Below, piece by piece: positions 47,014 through 56,686 of a DNA stretch of 56,686 bases (within the stretch, counting starts at the first letter, position 1; each line of letters starts with the position of its first letter). The translations under genes and the position numbers were made by a program. The notes beneath the pieces were generated by a model. The model worked only from the letters and a program-made list of their open reading frames with translations. It was not told where the DNA came from and made no database searches. Origin of the DNA: an uncultured Bacteroidia bacterium (GTDB lineage: Bacteria > Bacteroidota > Bacteroidia > Bacteroidales > Prolixibacteraceae); contig CAINVV010000236.1 in assembly GCA_903854235.1 (NCBI GenBank), forward strand, positions 1 through 56,686, written 5' to 3'.

Positions 47014-47688
47014 ATGCTTAGAAAACTGCTTTCCGCAACCTTTGTGCTTCTCTTTTCTGTTGGAATGCTCCTGGCCAGGGATAAGGCCATACCGTTGAAC
47101 AAGCTCCGGCAAACAGACCTTGGAAATCCTGTCATCGCAGGATCCGCAAAAATTTTAAAGGATGGCATTCAAATCGTTGCCGGAGGGGCGGATATATGGG
47201 GTGTCAGCGACCAGTTTCATTTCTCCTGGATCGAAAAAACTGGTGATTTCGATCTGGCTGCACGCGTCGAAAGTCTCACCGCGACGCATATGTACACAAA
47301 AGCTGGATTGATGGTACGCGAGGAGCTCACGGACAACAGCCGTCACATCTTCTTTCAGCTCTTTCCCGACAACAAGCCCCGGAACAAAAACAACGGAGGT
47401 TTTGAATTTCAATACCGTGCTGCAAAGGGAGGAGAGATGAAAGCAATCTACCCCGCAAAAGCCGATGCCTTGCCGGAGTTTCCCGTCAGCTTCCCGAATT
47501 CCTGGATCAGGCTGAAACGCACGGGAAATGCCTTTACCGGATTCTGTAGTCAGGATGGCAAAACTTGGAAAGCATATACAACCTACTCCCTTGATCTCCC
47601 AAAAAAAATATTTCTGGGAGTGGCTGTCACTTCTCACAATCCAAAGGAATCCGCGACAGCGGTCTTCCGTAATCTGATTTTCAAATGA
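47014..47688 (+). CDS. Secreted concanavalin-like (DUF1349-type) protein
   Basis: A signal peptide (LLSATFVLLFSVGMLLA) precedes a single ~200-residue beta-sandwich. Characteristic strands include GDFDLAARVESLTATHMYTKAGLMVRE, FEFQYRA, NSWIRLKRTGNAFTGFCSQDGKTWKAY and IFLGVAVTSHNP, the pattern of DUF1349/laminin-G-like modules that often accompany carbohydrate enzymes. No catalytic residues are evident; carbohydrate binding is plausible. Its stop overlaps the start of the Ser-type sulfatase (ATGA), so it is made together with that enzyme. Confidence 0.75.
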   Translation: MLRKLLSATFVLLFSVGMLLARDKAIPLNKLRQTDLGNPVIAGSAKILKDGIQIVAGGADIWGVSDQFHFSWIEKTGDFDLAARVESLTATHMYTKAGLMVREELTDNSRHIFFQLFPDNKPRNKNNGGFEFQYRAAKGGEMKAIYPAKADALPEFPVSFPNSWIRLKRTGNAFTGFCSQDGKTWKAYTTYSLDLPKKIFLGVAVTSHNPKESATAVFRNLIFK

Positions 47689-49106
47689 CACCCCTAAAAA
47701 CAGTTTTGCTGGGATTGACCCAACTTGCCGGAGTTTCGGCCTTCGCCGTGAAGCCCAACATCATCTACATCCTGGCCGATGACCTGGGATACGGCGATCT
47801 GAGCTGCTACGGACAAAAACACTTTCAGACGCCCAACCTCGACCGGATGGCCAAAGAGGGAATGCGCTTCACCCAGCATTATGCCGGCTGTGCAGTCAGC
47901 GCTCCCTCCCGCTCCTCCCTGATGACTGGGTTGAATACGGGACATACACCGGTTCGCGGCAATATGGAAGTGGGCGAAGAGGGCCAGTGGCCGCTTCCTG
48001 CCGAAACCATTACCTTTCCAAAACTTTTGAAGGAAGCTGGTTATGTCACTGCCGCCTTCGGTAAATGGGGACTCGGTTTTCCGGGATCGACTGGTGATCC
48101 GAACAAGATGGGTTTCGACCGTTTCTTTGGCTTCAACTGCCAGCGTCTGGCCCACAACTATTATCCAGATCACCTTTGGGACAACCAGGAAAAAATAGTC
48201 CTCGAAAACAATGGCGGAGATCAGATGGAAGATTATGCACCTGACCTGATCCACAAACAGGCCTTGCTTTTTATAGAGAAAAACAAAAGCAAACCCTTCT
48301 TCATCTATTATGCTTCCACCATCCCGCACGCAGAACTGATGGTTCCCGAAAAATACCTCGCAAAATTTCGGGGGAAATTCCCTCCAGAGAAAAAATTCAA
48401 GGGGACAGATGCCGGCGACAAGGGATTCAGAACCGGGCCCTATGGCTCACAAGCCGAAACACACGCAGCCTTTGCAGCCATGATCACCCTGCTCGACAAA
48501 CAGGTTGGCGAATTGCTTGCCAAACTGAAAGAGCTTGGCCTCGATAAAAATACCATCGTCCTCTTCAGTTCCGACAATGGACCGCACCTCGAAGGAGGTG
48601 CCGATCCCGACTATTTCGACAGCAACGGTCCGCTGAGAGGCTACAAAAGAGATCTTTACGAGGGAGGTATCCGCGAGCCAATGATCGTCTGGTGGCCGGG
48701 GAAAATAAAAAAAGGCGCTACCACCAACCACCTCTCTGCCTTCTGGGATGTGCTGCCCACCCTCACCGAATTAACAGGAATACCAACTCCAGCCAATACG
48801 GACGGAATCTCCTTCCTGCCAACCCTGCTGGGACAATCAGGCCAGAAAGAGCACGAAACCATGTACTGGGAGTTTCACGAACAGGACGGACGACAAGCCA
48901 TTCGCAAGGGGAACTGGAAACTGGTCAGGTACAAGGTACTGATTCCTGCCAAAACGACCACGGAGTTGTACGATCTGAGCAAGGACCTTGGGGAAACCAG
49001 CAATATCGCGGATCAGCATCCCGAAATCGTAGCCGACCTGATGAAAATAATGGCACAATCCAGAGTTCCTTCCGAAGCATTTAAGTTTGAACCTGTCAAA
49101 AACTAA
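47685..49106 (+). CDS. S1-family sulfatase, Ser-type (5), arylsulfatase A-like
   Basis: The gene is coupled by ATGA to the ConA-like gene. A weak signal (LLGLTQLAGVSAFA) precedes a typical arylsulfatase: NIIYILADDLGYGDLSCYG, CAVSAPSRSSLMTG, AAFGKWGLG, YYASTIPHAEL, LFSSDNGPHLEGGADP and NWKLVRYK. The formylglycine position is Ser72 (SAPSR), not Cys as in the other four sulfatases of the window. Ser-type sulfatases are matured by the radical-SAM enzyme anSME and cannot be matured by the aerobic FGE. It is probably an exo- or oligosaccharide sulfatase of the same pathway. The gap to the following GH105 is 6 bp. Confidence 0.92.
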   Translation: MTPLKTVLLGLTQLAGVSAFAVKPNIIYILADDLGYGDLSCYGQKHFQTPNLDRMAKEGMRFTQHYAGCAVSAPSRSSLMTGLNTGHTPVRGNMEVGEEGQWPLPAETITFPKLLKEAGYVTAAFGKWGLGFPGSTGDPNKMGFDRFFGFNCQRLAHNYYPDHLWDNQEKIVLENNGGDQMEDYAPDLIHKQALLFIEKNKSKPFFIYYASTIPHAELMVPEKYLAKFRGKFPPEKKFKGTDAGDKGFRTGPYGSQAETHAAFAAMITLLDKQVGELLAKLKELGLDKNTIVLFSSDNGPHLEGGADPDYFDSNGPLRGYKRDLYEGGIREPMIVWWPGKIKKGATTNHLSAFWDVLPTLTELTGIPTPANTDGISFLPTLLGQSGQKEHETMYWEFHEQDGRQAIRKGNWKLVRYKVLIPAKTTTELYDLSKDLGETSNIADQHPEIVADLMKIMAQSRVPSEAFKFEPVKN

Positions 49107-50497: not shown

Positions 50498-52030
50498 ATG
50501 AAGTTGAGCAATGCATTCAAAGGAAAATATGCGAAATTCCTGTTTGTGGGAATCGGGATCTTACTTTCCGTCCTCTTTATACTATCCCTGGAAGGTGTCT
50601 CAGATTACACCTCTTCCGACAAATATTGCGTCTCCTGTCACATCCACCCGGTACAGGATCAAAACTGGCGACTCTCCGAGCACTACAACAACAAGGCAGG
50701 CTTCGTGACCCACTGCATCGACTGCCACCTGCCGCCCAAAGGGCACGGATACCTTCCGGCGAAAGCCAAACACGGGATCAAGGATGTATATGGCAAACTA
50801 TTTAAGGACAGTGCTTCCTTCGACTGGGAAACCAGAAAAACACTCGAGAATGCAAAGGGATATGTCTACGAACAATCCTGCATCAAGTGCCACCAGAATC
50901 TTTTTCCCGCCACACTTTCTGTGAATGGCAGCAATGCCCACCTCCAATATGTCAACGCACCGGAGGGGACTAAGCCCAATTGCATCAACTGCCACCTCAA
51001 CGTGGGGCACTACGACAAGAACAACCTCCACGCCCACAATGCCAGCTTTGGGGTGACCGAAACGGTAGCCAAGGAGCTCTTCGCGGAAACGACACACATT
51101 CAGAAATTTGAAAATTTTGCCGAAAAAGTCCCCGGAACGACCCTTACCTTCGAACTTGTTGCCATCCCGGAAGGAACCTTCGAAATGGGAAGCCCCGAGA
51201 AGGAAGAACTTCGGAAACCGGATGAGGGTCCGGTCAGGAAGGTGCACCTCTCCAGATTCTTTATGGGCAAGGCCGAAGTGAGCTGGGACGAGTATCTCGA
51301 ATTTTTCAAGGCAACTGCCTCCCAGGGCCGCAAGGAAGCGGTAGTGAACCAACCCGTCACGGACGCCATTACTGGCCCGACTCCGCCATGGGGCGCCCCC
51401 GACCAGGGATGGGGCAAAGGCTCCCACCCAGCCATCACGATGTCGTGGAAGGCGGCCAATACCTACTGCCAGTGGCTTTCCAAAAAAACAGGCAAGAAAT
51501 ACAGGCTCCCGACCGAAGCCGAATGGGAATATGCCTGCCGTGGTGGTTCGAAAGATCCCTATTTCTTTGCAGGAAGTCCGAAGAAATTCAGCTCCACAGG
51601 GATGATGAACAAGATCTTCGGTCCGGACACGACCGTCATCAACTCCTATGTGGTCTACAAGGTGAACAGTTCATCCAAAACCAAAGAGCCCGGATCCGTC
51701 AAGGCCAATCCGTTTGGATTAAAGAATATGCTGGGAAATGTGGCGGAGTTCTGCTCCGACTTCTATGCCCCCAAAAGCTACAAGTCAGCCTCCGGTGAGA
51801 CCCTCAACAATCCTACGGGTCCCGAAAACGGACAGGAACACGTGATCCGCGGCGGCTCCTTCAAGAGCGATGCCAAGGATGTGCGCAGTGCCGCCAGGGA
51901 TTTCACCAAAACCAAGGCCTGGCTGATGACGGATCCTCAGATGCCCAAAAGCGTCTGGTGGTACTCCGACAGCAACGACGTAGGTTTCAGAATTGTATGT
52001 GAAGCAGACTCCACGGTAGTGGGACAATAA
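50498..52030 (+). CDS. Tetrahaem NapC/NrfH-type cytochrome c fused to a SUMF1/FGE-like domain
   Basis: The first ~190 residues are a membrane-anchored tetrahaem cytochrome: one membrane helix (FLFVGIGILLSVLFILSLEG, about 14-33) and four CXXCH motifs (44-48, 73-77, 128-132, 162-166), the count and layout of NrfH-type quinol dehydrogenases. From about residue 215 a SUMF1-fold domain follows (AIPEGTFEMGSPEKEE; RLPTEAEWEYACRGG; GNVAEFC near 411; HVIRGGSF near 450; VGFRIVC near 494). The copper-binding Cys pair of true formylglycine-generating enzymes, expected just after RGGS, is replaced by KSDAKD, so it is probably not a sulfatase-maturing enzyme. It heads an operon with two Gfo/Idh/MocA oxidoreductases and a ThuA protein. 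An electron-transfer role for periplasmic sugar redox chemistry is inferred. Confidence 0.87.
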   Translation: MKLSNAFKGKYAKFLFVGIGILLSVLFILSLEGVSDYTSSDKYCVSCHIHPVQDQNWRLSEHYNNKAGFVTHCIDCHLPPKGHGYLPAKAKHGIKDVYGKLFKDSASFDWETRKTLENAKGYVYEQSCIKCHQNLFPATLSVNGSNAHLQYVNAPEGTKPNCINCHLNVGHYDKNNLHAHNASFGVTETVAKELFAETTHIQKFENFAEKVPGTTLTFELVAIPEGTFEMGSPEKEELRKPDEGPVRKVHLSRFFMGKAEVSWDEYLEFFKATASQGRKEAVVNQPVTDAITGPTPPWGAPDQGWGKGSHPAITMSWKAANTYCQWLSKKTGKKYRLPTEAEWEYACRGGSKDPYFFAGSPKKFSSTGMMNKIFGPDTTVINSYVVYKVNSSSKTKEPGSVKANPFGLKNMLGNVAEFCSDFYAPKSYKSASGETLNNPTGPENGQEHVIRGGSFKSDAKDVRSAARDFTKTKAWLMTDPQMPKSVWWYSDSNDVGFRIVCEADSTVVGQ

Positions 52031-52043
52031 TGAATGGATAGCC

Positions 52044-53390
52044 ATGGAAAACAAGAAAAATCTTGATAGAAGAAAATTTTTAGGTGCAGGGGTCCTCGCC
52101 GGAATGACGGTAGTGGGAGCCGGTGCCCTTCTTTCCTCCTGCAAAAAAGAGGCTACCAATGCCTCTCTCGGACTACCTCCCATTTTGAAGGGAGCACCGA
52201 AAGGAAGAAAACTACGTGCCGGACTGGTCGGTGCCGGCAACCGCGGAACCGGTGCCGCCATCAACTTCATCAGCGCCGGGCCGGACCTCGAAATCATCGC
52301 AGTTTGTGATGTCTTTCAGGACAAGATCGACGCCTTCCGCGAACGTTTCAAATCTTTCAACCTCGAAATCCCTGAGAAAAATTGCTTCACAGGATTCGAC
52401 GGATACAAGAAAATGATGGCACTAGAAGAGCTCGATGTGGTGCTACTGGCTACCCCGCCACGCTTCCGTCCCGACCATTTGCTGGAGGCAATCCTGAACA
52501 AGAAACACGTCTTCATGGAAAAACCGGTTGCCGTCGATCCGGTCGGCATCCGCTCCGTCATCGCTTCCGCGAAGAAGGCTGAGGCGCTGGGTCTATGCAT
52601 CGTCACAGGCACACAACGCCGCCACCAGGAAGATTACATTGAAACTTACAAACGGGTGAAGGCTGGCGCCATTGGCCGGCCTACGGCTGCCAAGGCCTTC
52701 TGGAACCAGGACCACGTCTGGTTTCGTACCCGGGAAGCCGGATGGGACGACATGACCTACATGGTTCGAAACTGGAACAATTTCTGCTGGCTCTGCGGCG
52801 ACCACATCCTCGATACCCACATCCACAACATCGACGTCATCAACTGGTTCATGGGTAAGACTCCCGTCAATGCCATCGGCAATGGTGGCCGCCACCGCCG
52901 CGTCACAGGCGACCAGTACGACTTCTTCAACATCGATTTCGACTACGGCAATGGGGTCAGCTCGCACAGCTACTGCCGTGAGATCGACAGCTGCACCAAC
53001 CGCACCGGAGAGCTGGTAATGGGAACCGAAGGCTACACCAATTGTGTCAACACCATCTGGGACCTGGACGGGAAGGTCAAATGGCAGTTCGAATACCCGA
53101 AAGACGAAAACGGCAATGCGATGAACCAGCTGAAGATTCCTGCCTACGTCCAGGAACACATGCACCTCGTCCACGCCATCCGCAAGGGCGAATACGTGAA
53201 CCAGGCCGAGCAGACCGCCCTCTCCACCCTGACGGCCATCATGGGCCGGACAGCAGCCTATACCGGCCAACTGGTTACCTGGGAAGAGATGATGAAATCA
53301 GACATGCAACTCGGACCCAAGGAATTGGTCTTCGGCCCTGTCGACATGAAATTTGAGGTTCCCGTACCCGGAACGCCGCCAAACATTTAA
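52044..53390 (+). CDS. Tat-exported Gfo/Idh/MocA oxidoreductase, probable lipoprotein (2)
   Basis: The N-terminus has DRRKFLG (twin arginine) and LLSSCKK (possible lipobox), so the protein is probably folded with its NAD(P) in the cytoplasm, exported by Tat and anchored. The nucleotide-binding loop is RAGLVGAGNRGTG (about 54-66) and the EKP motif is at 159-161 (MEKPVAV). The active-site His region is CGDHILDTHIHNIDVINWF. A long insertion rich in Trp (NQDHVWFRTREAGWDDMTYMVRNWNNFCW) distinguishes it from the two other Gfo/Idh/MocA proteins here. A sugar C3-oxidoreductase, or an NAD-dependent GH109-type glycosidase, is consistent. It starts 13 bp after the cytochrome-SUMF1 gene. Confidence 0.88.
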   Translation: MENKKNLDRRKFLGAGVLAGMTVVGAGALLSSCKKEATNASLGLPPILKGAPKGRKLRAGLVGAGNRGTGAAINFISAGPDLEIIAVCDVFQDKIDAFRERFKSFNLEIPEKNCFTGFDGYKKMMALEELDVVLLATPPRFRPDHLLEAILNKKHVFMEKPVAVDPVGIRSVIASAKKAEALGLCIVTGTQRRHQEDYIETYKRVKAGAIGRPTAAKAFWNQDHVWFRTREAGWDDMTYMVRNWNNFCWLCGDHILDTHIHNIDVINWFMGKTPVNAIGNGGRHRRVTGDQYDFFNIDFDYGNGVSSHSYCREIDSCTNRTGELVMGTEGYTNCVNTIWDLDGKVKWQFEYPKDENGNAMNQLKIPAYVQEHMHLVHAIRKGEYVNQAEQTALSTLTAIMGRTAAYTGQLVTWEEMMKSDMQLGPKELVFGPVDMKFEVPVPGTPPNI

Positions 53391-53464: not shown

Positions 53465-54781
53465 ATGATGACTAGCAATTCAAACAGAAGAACTTTCCTG
53501 AAAAATTCGGCTGTTGCATCCGTGGGAACCCTCATCCTCCCGCAGATCATTCCCTCCACGGCGTTGGGAATGGGCGGCAGACTAGCCCCCAGCAACCGGC
53601 TCGTGATGGGTGCCATCGGCACCGGCTCCCAGGGCAGAAGCAACATGGGCGACTTCCTCAAACTGAACAAAGAGGTTCAGTTCGTTGCCCTCTGTGACGT
53701 CGATACCAACAACCTTCAAAAAGCAAAAGGCATTGCCGATGCCGCTTATGCCAACAACGACTGCCGCACCTATGGCGATTTCCGCGAGTTCCTGGAGAAA
53801 GAAAAACTGGATGCCGTGGCCATCGCACTACCCGACCACTGGCACGGTATCATCTACACCGCAGCCGTCGAGAAGAAACTGAATGTCTATGGAGAGAAAC
53901 CCATCTGCCGCACCATCCGCGATGGCCAAACCATCGTAAAAGCGGTTCAAAAAAACAAAGTTACCTGGCAAACCGGAAGCTGGCAACGCTCCAGACCCAA
54001 TTTCCACCGGGGTGCCGAACTGGCTATCAATGGCCGTATTGGAAAGATCCAGCGCATTGAAGTGGGTCTTCCCAACGGAAACAAGGGAATCGGGACACCT
54101 CCCGTCCAGGATGTTCCGAAAGAACTGAATTGGGACCTATGGCTCGGACCTGCTCCCAAGGTCGCCTACCGCGGAGTCAGCCATTGGAACTGGCGCTGGA
54201 TCCTCGACTATTCCGGCGGACAGCTCACAGACTGGGCCGGCCACCACATCGACATCGCCAACTGGGGGGCTGGACTCGAACATACCGGTCCGGTTGAGAT
54301 TTCGGGAGAAGGCGTCTACCCAAGGGAAGGAATCTACAACGTTCCGGTTGAGTATGATTTCCTCTGCAAATATGCAAACGGCATCGAGATGCGCGTTTGC
54401 AACGATGCCCGACTCGAAAAAGGCGCAGGGACCACCTGGTACGGCGACAAAGGCTGGATCCACGTCAACAGGGGAGAAATCCTGATGGCTTCCGATCCGA
54501 AAATCCTGGAAGAGGTAATTGGTGAGACCGAAATCCACCTGATCAAGAGCGACAACCACTGGCAAAATTTTGTCGACTGCGTGCGCTCCGGCCAAAAAAC
54601 CATCGCACCCATCGAAGTGGCCTATCGTGCCATCTCAGTTGCCCTGCTCGGCGAAATCGCCATGCAGACCGGTCAGAAGATTCAGTGGGATCCCGAAAAG
54701 GAGGAGATCATCGGCAACCCAATGGCCGCACGATTGCTTGATCGTCCCTATCGTCAACCCTGGCAATTACCAACCATTTAA
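53465..54781 (+). CDS. Tat-exported Gfo/Idh/MocA oxidoreductase (3)
   Basis: A Tat signal (NRRTFLKNSAVASVG) precedes the Rossmann domain (LVMGAIGTGSQGR) and the EKP motif at 144-146 (YGEKPICRTI). The C-terminal domain has WRWILDYSGGQLTDWAGHHIDIANWG, nearly the same as the enzyme at 12533 ([24 protein letters not shown]), so these two are paralogues of one sub-family while the one at 52044 belongs to another. DHWHG near residue 123 is also shared (DHWHS at 12533). Expected work is NAD-dependent oxidation or reduction of a sugar hydroxyl in the periplasm. ThuB, the partner of ThuA in rhizobia, is a Gfo/Idh/MocA enzyme making 3-keto-disaccharides; a ThuA gene follows 10 bp downstream. Confidence 0.88.
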   Translation: MMTSNSNRRTFLKNSAVASVGTLILPQIIPSTALGMGGRLAPSNRLVMGAIGTGSQGRSNMGDFLKLNKEVQFVALCDVDTNNLQKAKGIADAAYANNDCRTYGDFREFLEKEKLDAVAIALPDHWHGIIYTAAVEKKLNVYGEKPICRTIRDGQTIVKAVQKNKVTWQTGSWQRSRPNFHRGAELAINGRIGKIQRIEVGLPNGNKGIGTPPVQDVPKELNWDLWLGPAPKVAYRGVSHWNWRWILDYSGGQLTDWAGHHIDIANWGAGLEHTGPVEISGEGVYPREGIYNVPVEYDFLCKYANGIEMRVCNDARLEKGAGTTWYGDKGWIHVNRGEILMASDPKILEEVIGETEIHLIKSDNHWQNFVDCVRSGQKTIAPIEVAYRAISVALLGEIAMQTGQKIQWDPEKEEIIGNPMAARLLDRPYRQPWQLPTI

Positions 54782-54791
54782 TCTCTAAACA

Positions 54792-56009
54792 ATGAAAACC
54801 AAATATTCCCTTCTCCTGATACTGGCAGGGTTCCTATTCCTTCAGTCGTGCCAGGAAAAAACAGCCTATCGTGCCCTGATCGTGACCGGCCAAAGCAACC
54901 ACAACTGGAAGGCCTCGGCTACCATCCTGAAAACAATTCTGGACCAGACCAAACTTTTTACCACCGACATCGCCCAGACTCCGAAAGAGGGAGGCGATCT
55001 GAGCAGTTTCCATCCCGACTTTTCCAAATACAACGTCATCGTATTGGATTACAACGGTGACTCCTGGCCGGAACAAACAAAAACGGCCTTTATCGAATAT
55101 GTGAAGAATGGCGGGGGTGTGGTCTCCTACCACGAAGCCGACAACTCCTTCCCCGACTGGAAAGAGTACAACGAAATGATCGGCCTTGGAGGCTGGAACC
55201 ATCGTTCGGAGAAAGACGGCCCTTATGTCTACTATAGCAAGAATGTGCTTGTGGTTGATACCGCCAAAGGCTCCGCCGGATCCCACGGTCCCCAGCACGA
55301 ATACCTGGTAAGGGCCCGCAAGGCCGACCATCCGATCCTGAAAGGTCTTCCGGTTGCCTGGATTCACGGCAAAGACGAACTCTACAGCACCCTTCGCGGT
55401 CCGGCGAAAAACATGGAAATCCTGGCTACCGCTTACGCGGATACTTCCAAGAGAGGTACCGGCAGGGATGAACCGATGCTGATGACCCTCACCTACGGCA
55501 AAGGACGCATCTTCCACACCGCCATGGGTCATGTGGGGAAAGAGGATACCCACGCCGCAACCGAATGCGTCGGATTTATCGTCACCTTCCAGCGTGGTGC
55601 CGAGTGGGCAGCCTGCGGAAATGTTACCCAGGAGATCCCCATCGACTTCCCCAATGTGGCCTGCTCTGTTTCCAGACCCGATTACAAGGAGGTGACCCTA
55701 TCGGATGATCTCGACAAAATCGCCAAATACACCATCGACAAATCCACCCGCAACTATACCGACCTACAGGCCAGGATCCGCAAGGTAAGTGGCAATCCTG
55801 CCGCACTACTCGACCTCGAAAAACAGATGGTCAGCATCCTGAAGGAGACGGGTGCAACAGTGGATGGTAAAAAACTGATCCTGCGCGAACTCGCCTGGAT
55901 GGGCTCTGACTATTGCATTCCAGCCGTTCAGGAACTACTCAAGGATGCCGATTTGAAAGACGCTGCTACATTCACCCTCGAACGGATGAAGGGACCAAGA
56001 AAAATCTGA
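54792..56009 (+). CDS. ThuA-like lipoprotein with HEAT-like C-terminal part
   Basis: A lipobox (AGFLFLQSC, Cys20) makes this a lipoprotein. Residues about 28-265 form a ThuA (amidotransferase-like) domain: ALIVTGQSNHNWKAS, YNVIVLDYNGDSWPEQ, GGGVVSYHEADNSFPDW, MIGLGGWNHRSE, HPILKGLPVAWIHGKDELYS, PMLMTLTYGKGRIFHTAMGHV. The last ~110 residues are helical (ILKETGATVDGKKLILRELAWMGSDYCIPAVQELLKDADLKDAATFTLE), similar to HEAT/armadillo repeats often found in ThuA proteins of planctomycetes and Bacteroidota. ThuA works together with Gfo/Idh/MocA enzymes in keto-disaccharide metabolism in rhizobia, but its exact reaction is not settled. It closes the redox operon. Confidence 0.87.
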   Translation: MKTKYSLLLILAGFLFLQSCQEKTAYRALIVTGQSNHNWKASATILKTILDQTKLFTTDIAQTPKEGGDLSSFHPDFSKYNVIVLDYNGDSWPEQTKTAFIEYVKNGGGVVSYHEADNSFPDWKEYNEMIGLGGWNHRSEKDGPYVYYSKNVLVVDTAKGSAGSHGPQHEYLVRARKADHPILKGLPVAWIHGKDELYSTLRGPAKNMEILATAYADTSKRGTGRDEPMLMTLTYGKGRIFHTAMGHVGKEDTHAATECVGFIVTFQRGAEWAACGNVTQEIPIDFPNVACSVSRPDYKEVTLSDDLDKIAKYTIDKSTRNYTDLQARIRKVSGNPAALLDLEKQMVSILKETGATVDGKKLILRELAWMGSDYCIPAVQELLKDADLKDAATFTLERMKGPRKI

Positions 56010-56369: not shown

Positions 56370-56686
56370 ATGTTCAGCCTGGTCATCCCCGTATACAACG
56401 AAGCACAACTGATCGATGATCTGGTTAACAGAATCGTGGCCGCCGTGGAATCCTTCACGAACGACTATGAACTCCTCTTTCTTGACGATGGCAGCACCGA
56501 CGATACCGTTGGTAACCTCTTGAAATACCGGCTGCACAACAAAAACATCAAGATCATCTCCCTCTCCAAGAACTTCGGTCACCAGGCGGCCTTCACCGCC
56601 GGACTCGAACACGCGAAAGGAGAGGTCATCGCCATGATGGACGGCGATCTCCAGGATCCGCCCGAACTGCTGGCCGAGATGTACCG
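56370..56686 (+). CDS. GT2-family glycosyltransferase, truncated by the window end
   Basis: The frame opens at ATG 56370 and runs to the last base, giving about 105 residues of a DPMS/polyprenyl-phosphate-sugar-type GT2 fold: FSLVIPVYNEAQ, LLFLDDGSTDDT, IKIISLSKNFGHQAAFTAGLEHA and VIAMMDGDLQDPPELL (the DXD-type metal site is DGDLQD). Such enzymes transfer a sugar from a nucleotide donor to polyprenyl phosphate or to a lipid in the cytoplasmic membrane. It belongs to a separate, probably housekeeping or envelope, unit after the glycan locus. Confidence 0.9.
   Translation, partial: MFSLVIPVYNEAQLIDDLVNRIVAAVESFTNDYELLFLDDGSTDDTVGNLLKYRLHNKNIKIISLSKNFGHQAAFTAGLEHAKGEVIAMMDGDLQDPPELLAEMY

Follow-up and report, generated by a model that had tools for sequence, protein, structure and literature searches.

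A tetrahaem cytochrome–SUMF1 fusion of Bacteroidales and its constant Gfo/Idh/MocA neighbour, a possible redox adaptor for an exported dehydrogenase

The window, meaning the whole stretch of 56,686 nucleotides analysed here from an uncultured bacterium of the Prolixibacteraceae (Bacteroidales), holds towards its end a gene in which a multihaem cytochrome and a SUMF1-fold domain are joined, followed by genes for two Gfo/Idh/MocA enzymes, designated G1 and G2, and for a ThuA-family protein:

50498..52030, + strand: NapC/NrfH-type tetrahaem cytochrome fused to a SUMF1-fold domain, 510 aa (open reading frame, Pfam and aligned fusions)
50522..50608, + strand: N-terminal hydrophobic helix of the fusion, residues 9-37 (hydropathy; helix at 10-38 in a low-confidence model)
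50627..50995, + strand: tetrahaem domain, CXXCH at residues 44-48, 73-77, 128-132 and 162-166; K89 and D96 align with K82 and D89 of NrfH
51152..51904, + strand: SUMF1-fold (FGE-sulfatase) domain, residues 219-469 (Pfam and similarity to SUMF1-fold structures)
51920..51961, + strand: C-terminal signature W-x3-DPQ-x-P-x-S-x-WW, residues 475-488
52044..53390, + strand: G1, the constant partner: Gfo/Idh/MocA dehydrogenase bearing a twin-arginine signal and then a lipobox-like Cys
53465..54781, + strand: G2, second Gfo/Idh/MocA enzyme, with twin-arginine signal
54792..56009, + strand: ThuA-family protein with lipoprotein-like N-terminus

The fusion is read from an ATG as one unbroken frame with zero internal stops, and Pfam places Cytochrom_NNT (PF03264) at residues 11-172 with 91.5 bits (cut-off 24.1) and FGE-sulfatase at residues 219-469 with 153.3 bits (cut-off 23.3). 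Hydropathy reveals a single strongly hydrophobic stretch, with 19-residue windows starting at residues 9-19. The frame, the Pfam domains and the motif positions all agree with the original prediction of a membrane-anchored cytochrome with four CXXCH motifs and a SUMF1 domain in one protein. Structure prediction yielded a weak model of the fusion (mean pLDDT 62.5), and the model of a joined fusion and G1 chain (pLDDT 48.4, pTM 0.31) was judged useless.

A scan of a genome collection with the window protein retrieved 44 fusion loci from named records, titled as uncultured Bacteroidia, Prolixibacteraceae, Sunxiuqinia, Gaoshiqia, Mariniphaga and others, and all 44 encode four CXXCH motifs together with the SUMF1 domain. 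Fusion matches with E up to 1e-100 were present in 38 of the 295 sampled genomes of the window's order, its own genome included, while in a phylum-wide sample of 296 genomes the matches that include the cytochrome were confined to the window's own genome. A second copy of the fusion occurs in that genome at 56% identity, with a G1-type gene next downstream. Together with the window and this paralogue, the named-record loci make up the 46 fusion loci considered below. A rare assembly artefact, named beforehand as one outcome that would overturn the original prediction, is rejected on the basis of the 44/44 loci, the second copy and the 38/295 order genomes, and the fusion makes up a family that is stable and narrowly distributed. 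No description of it was found in the open literature searched, nor by word search of two flavinylation papers (PMC8238504, PMC11334425). We class it as a putative electron adaptor of the NapC/NrfH kind, joined to a SUMF1 domain and linked to a dehydrogenase that is exported.

In the window the fusion, G1, G2 and ThuA genes are separated by only 13, 74 and 10 bases. G1 is the next gene in 46/46 fusion loci, and in 42 of them no more than 36 bases separate the two; homologues of the fusion do therefore lie near Gfo/Idh/MocA genes. G2 follows downstream in at least 32/46 loci and the ThuA gene in at least 19/46, both being lower bounds as some loci end early. The operon proposed originally (fusion, two Gfo/Idh/MocA enzymes and ThuA) therefore stands for the window, but across the 46 loci G1 alone is constant, and that operon is one version of a smaller constant unit consisting of the fusion and G1. 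The nearest NCBIfam model to G2 is the glycoside 3-dehydrogenase BT_2158, at 154.3 bits and under the cut-off of 750. Relatives of the window's other carbohydrate genes are seldom shared near the fusion (DUF1080 in 6/46, sulfatase in 4/46, GH88 in 2/46).

Several features of the surroundings were noted by eye. A protein of about 855 aa is encoded directly before the fusion in 18 loci (including L055, L064 and L072); it resembles a regulator, with a C-terminus that would bind DNA and a region like that of a lectin. Downstream of the unit a glycosyltransferase-like gene appears in 33 loci, often with the gene of a large membrane protein next (27 loci), and the end of the window cuts an apparent gene of the former kind at 56370-56684. 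The upstream part of the window (5-49106) looks devoted to the breakdown of polysaccharides, several sulfatases and glycosidases being encoded there; within it the Pfam scan covered 47014-49106, together with the adjoining gene to 50189.

The best solved relative of G1 scores 44.6 bits. The G1 residues E159-K160-P161, D253-H254 and H261 are kept in at least 95% of the 46 fusion partners and likewise of the 19 G1 proteins linked to ApbE (see below). In the fusion loci a Cys stands at lipobox distance after the twin-arginine motif of G1 in 46/46 cases, whereas in G1 of unfused pairs a Cys after the motif was seen in 2/35, and in these two it directly adjoins the motif and does not resemble a lipobox. 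The idea that the fusion brought about a lipid anchor on G1 was nevertheless set aside and counts as a weak point only, because G1 relatives in one family that have no cytochrome partner (L121, L127 and L128) also carry a lipobox-like Cys. In Gram-negative cells, moreover, a lipobox is no proof of inner-membrane location.

The association of the SUMF1 domain with G1 extends beyond the fusion. In the phylum sample the best non-fusion SUMF1 matches are frames of mostly about 310-385 aa, aligning with residues of about 200 to 500 of the fusion. Among the 30 best of them (E up to 7e-44), an unselected set on which the pairing claim rests, G1 lies within 1.5 kb in 27, and in the three exceptions it is found elsewhere in the genome (G134, G182 and G249); all 30 genomes thus possess G1, against 46/296 genomes overall. 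A wider set of 39 matches, hand-picked and in its weaker members not blind to G1, gave 32/39 within 1.5 kb. By called ORFs, G1 stood within two genes of 35/45 unfused SUMF1 entries, one locus being counted twice; ORF calling missed some G1 or ApbE frames in high-GC loci (L099, L111, L122, L124 and L137), and these were recovered through genome coordinates and a six-frame search.

The two partners also diverge in step. Pairwise distances of SUMF1 and G1 correlate with r of 0.94 over 81 pairs, 0.64 over the 35 unfused and 0.90 over the 46 fused, and 0/1000 permutations reached as high a value in each set, with shared species history contributing to the correlation. In trees built from 44 of the 81 pairs (near-duplicates omitted by choice; L142 very divergent), the fused SUMF1 domains form one group (support 95/99), while in the G1 tree the G1 partners of the fusions form one group together with L112 (100/99) and are poorly supported on their own (42/0). 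Our reading is that the SUMF1-G1 pair is the older arrangement and that it gained the cytochrome, probably once. The single tree group is also what would be expected if a domain fusion were simply carried along in one lineage with no function shared between its parts; this passive linkage is already disfavoured and appears very improbable, given G1 in 46/46 loci, the same pairing in further families of the phylum where no cytochrome is attached, the correlated divergence, and the invariant haem and signature residues.

With regard to the cytochrome, the Cys and His of all four CXXCH motifs are invariant in 45/45 aligned fusions, and so are K89 and D96, which correspond to K82 and D89 of Desulfovibrio NrfH (2j7a) when counted along the printed alignment. 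The Cytochrom_NNT score, the four CXXCH motifs after one N-terminal helix and the Lys and Asp of the quinone region place the domain among the NapC/NrfH tetrahaem cytochromes. Lys82 and Asp89 are named as conserved NrfH residues in the context of the quinone pool (PMC4683180), while Met49 and Asp89 are called essential for menaquinol oxidation (PMC10654088). A quinone link of the fusion cytochrome is plausible because the equivalents of Lys82 and Asp89 are kept in 45/45. The haem-1 Met position of NrfH is His (H50) in 45/45 fusions, which read CXXCHxH in place of CXXCHxM, and this speaks against a simple NrfH-like function; the protein is not NrfH proper. Its score against the NrfH equivalog is 73.0 bits, under the cut-off of 134.2. 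A role as NrfH in nitrite ammonification was rejected, as no match to the NrfA partner (PF02335) was obtained in the window's genome, which is 95% complete. The same genome has one cytochrome bd oxidase match. It also contains a gene, assigned by eye to a GMC-type oxidoreductase, that overlaps a gene for a NapC-like multihaem cytochrome (L085:3-2556), another candidate for haem-linked extracytoplasmic oxidation.

Electrons could also run in the opposite direction. The NapC/NrfH group is presented as one of quinol dehydrogenases (PMC10654088), and with two quinone-site residues kept, menaquinol might reduce the haems so that the SUMF1 domain or G1 reduces a keto-sugar or another oxidised substrate. 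Such reverse flow seems improbable to us: G1 would gain nothing from quinol, NADH already being a stronger reductant than menaquinol, and G2 (glycoside 3-dehydrogenase-like) and ThuA suit the catabolism of sugars better than reduction.

The closest solved structures of the SUMF1 domain are PvdO and FGE. The copper-Cys columns of FGE, paired by eye from the RGGS motif, are occupied in the fusion by S457 and V462, and Cys in both was found in 0/81 aligned relatives, which bears out the original prediction of a SUMF1 domain lacking the FGE Cys pair. Fused domains in 46/46 cases and unfused ones in 33/35 retain the signature W-x3-DPQ-x-P-x-S-x-W-[WY]. Cys324, Cys419 and Cys501 (window positions 51467, 51752 and 51998) are invariant in 46/46 fusions but not in the unfused forms, where Thr mostly stands at position 419 and Arg at 501; C347 is frequent and not constant. 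The list of conserved residues contains no His or Cys common to fused and unfused forms, which makes a binding function more likely than a metal site, PvdO-like oxidation being the less likely alternative.

On the latter view the SUMF1 domain would itself be a redox enzyme that dehydrogenates a substrate in the manner of PvdO, with G1 acting on the product, and the acceptors would be oxygen or flavin in the unfused relatives and menaquinone, via the haems, in the fused form. The top Foldseek match is indeed PvdO (5hha), obtained with the low-confidence model of the fusion, and phmmer concurs on the fold family; PvdO is also the best NCBIfam model, and the signature is conserved as would be expected of an active site. 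We consider this unlikely all the same, with no obvious metal site in the absence of a His or Cys conserved across both forms, the FGE Cys pair missing in 81/81, and PvdO scores (112.6 bits for the fusion, 120.0 and 96.3 for two unfused relatives) far under the equivalog cut-off of 500.

The genes flanking the unfused pairs point to other redox helpers. Pfam assigned AP_endonuc_2 TIM barrels to 24 and ApbE to 13 of the 128 genes scanned around 35 unfused pairs (6 long genes of 134 were omitted). AP_endonuc_2 genes were observed beside the pairs in L097, L102, L103, L105, L110 and others, several having twin-arginine-like starts. In the 45 genomes that remain when the window's own is removed from the 46 with G1, 31, spread over 12/14 families, have an ApbE gene no more than 5 kb from a G1 or SUMF1 match, against 0.47 expected from genome lengths; it is not nearby in the other 14. 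Its position varies, being before, after or divergent to the SUMF1-G1 pair, and it also occurs near G1 where SUMF1 is missing (L140, L143 and L144) and near SUMF1 where G1 is missing (L086). In two genomes of one genus with no ApbE nearby, a one-haem Tll0287-like protein is encoded directly before the unfused SUMF1-G1 pair (L094:6171-6914 and L100:6262-6915).

Beside the fusion, ApbE was found in 0/38 fusion-bearing genomes, with 7/45 fusion matches starting less than 5 kb from the contig start; it shares a contig with the fusion just once among them, about 60 kb off, and one fusion genome, 61% complete, has no ApbE match at all. As the fusions look like one origin, these are not 38 independent cases. 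An ApbE profile made from a larger seed set was also run in six frames. It gave no match in the window or in any of the 44 named loci, and it recovered its positive controls, namely the two ApbE genes of the window's genome and four other positives. ApbE attaches FMN, and fumarate reductases offer a precedent for the swap of flavin and cytochrome (PMC8238504). The pattern fits an interchangeable redox helper, with a flavin in some cases, a small haem protein in others and, in the fusion, the tetrahaem domain as candidates for that part.

A canonical ApbE target, [ST]GA[ST], occurs in 0/35 unfused SUMF1, 4/35 unfused G1, 2/46 fused SUMF1 and 0/46 G1 proteins of fusion loci, and in the ApbE loci in 2/19 G1, 0/17 SUMF1 and 0/16 TIM-barrel proteins. 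It is not a conserved feature, and the linked proteins lack the conserved motif that would mark an ApbE-dependent flavoprotein.

FGE is an enzyme that modifies another protein. SUMF1 and ApbE could similarly be maturation factors of G1 that modify a residue or insert a cofactor, the cytochrome supplying or removing electrons for that step; ApbE, for its part, attaches a flavin (PMC8238504), and the genes of SUMF1, G1 and ApbE co-occur in all pairwise combinations. The chance of this appears slim, with no conserved target residue evident in G1: the only column that is Ser or Thr in ApbE-linked but not in fusion G1 is position 445, near the C-terminus, and it is Ser or Thr in most other unfused G1 as well.

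NAD-dependent Gfo/Idh/MocA enzymes that bacteria export arrive in a compartment that has no soluble NAD pool. Unless such an enzyme goes on to reduce its product, its bound NADH needs another way of being re-oxidised, and we know of no established route for this. We put forward, tentatively and with slightly less than even confidence in the reading as a whole, that the fusion is a membrane-anchored redox adaptor for exported G1 that delivers electrons to menaquinone. G1 would be exported folded via Tat with NAD already bound and, once beyond the cytoplasm, would oxidise a sugar or a compound derived from one. The SUMF1 domain would hold G1, or a substrate common to both, while the four haems of the attached NrfH-type domain would carry the electrons to the menaquinone pool, so that the bound NADH could be re-oxidised in place, there being no soluble pool of NAD. 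In other Bacteroidota the pair lacks such a cytochrome, and ApbE is often nearby; a carrier with covalently attached flavin may serve there instead.

The partnership of the fusion with G1 is well supported, and the reading draws on the constancy of the fusion, the pairing with G1, the co-divergence, the G1 motifs, the two quinone-site residues and the ApbE pattern. Physical contact, tightly bound NAD, the direction of the electrons, any flavin step and the substrate are parts that we infer. Against it speak the change of the haem-1 Met to His in 45/45 fusions and the lack of a conserved flavin acceptor motif. A transfer from NADH to haem that bypasses a flavin would be unusual; a direct step of this kind is the weakest point of the mechanism, and the link to ApbE elsewhere hints at a flavin. 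The original idea that the quinone pool is coupled to extracytoplasmic sugar chemistry gains from the presence of G1 in 46/46 loci and beside unfused SUMF1 and from the retained K82/D89 equivalents, and loses from His in place of Met49 in 45/45 and from the inconstancy of ThuA and G2.

Judging from the sequences, these arrangements suggest that some bacteria feed electrons from extracytoplasmic sugar oxidation into the respiratory chain. A constant partner with a quinone-type cytochrome offers a specific, testable answer to the problem of bound-NADH re-oxidation, and from the association with ApbE one may suspect a flavinylation substrate that has so far been overlooked. A bolder version, which we hold doubtful, is that SUMF1-G1 constitutes a new class of respiratory sugar dehydrogenase with trapped NAD that is re-oxidised in place, in many Bacteroidota by way of a flavin that ApbE attaches to SUMF1 or G1 at a non-motif site, and in the window's lineage by way of the fused, menaquinone-reactive tetrahaem domain; if true, SUMF1-G1 would be a periplasmic entry point for NADH into the electron transport chain.

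With reference to known systems, the fusion shares with NrfH, NapC and CymA (PF03264) a single hydrophobic helix at the N-terminus, a set of four CXXCH motifs, and the residues aligned with NrfH K82 and D89, but it differs in having CXXCHxH where CXXCHxM is described for NrfH, in its SUMF1 domain, and in a genome with no NrfA match. Its SUMF1 domain resembles PvdO and FGE in fold and sequence, and is set apart from them by the lack of the FGE Cys pair, by the W-x3-DPQ-x-P-x-S-x-WW signature and by the constant Gfo/Idh/MocA neighbour. G1 belongs by family match and EKP motif with the BT_2158 glycoside 3-dehydrogenase family and aldose-aldose oxidoreductase (5a02), yet the BT_2158 model (cut-off 750) gives it no more than 27.9 bits, and its association is with SUMF1 and with a cytochrome or ApbE. 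The nearest parallel to the alternation of helpers is found in the extracytoplasmic reductases of Meheust et al. 2021 (PMC8238504), which likewise have a multihaem domain in some species and flavinylation in others; by word search, FGE, sulfatase, MocA, NapC and NrfH do not occur in the main text of that paper, and its enzymes are reductases, whereas G1 is of the dehydrogenase type.
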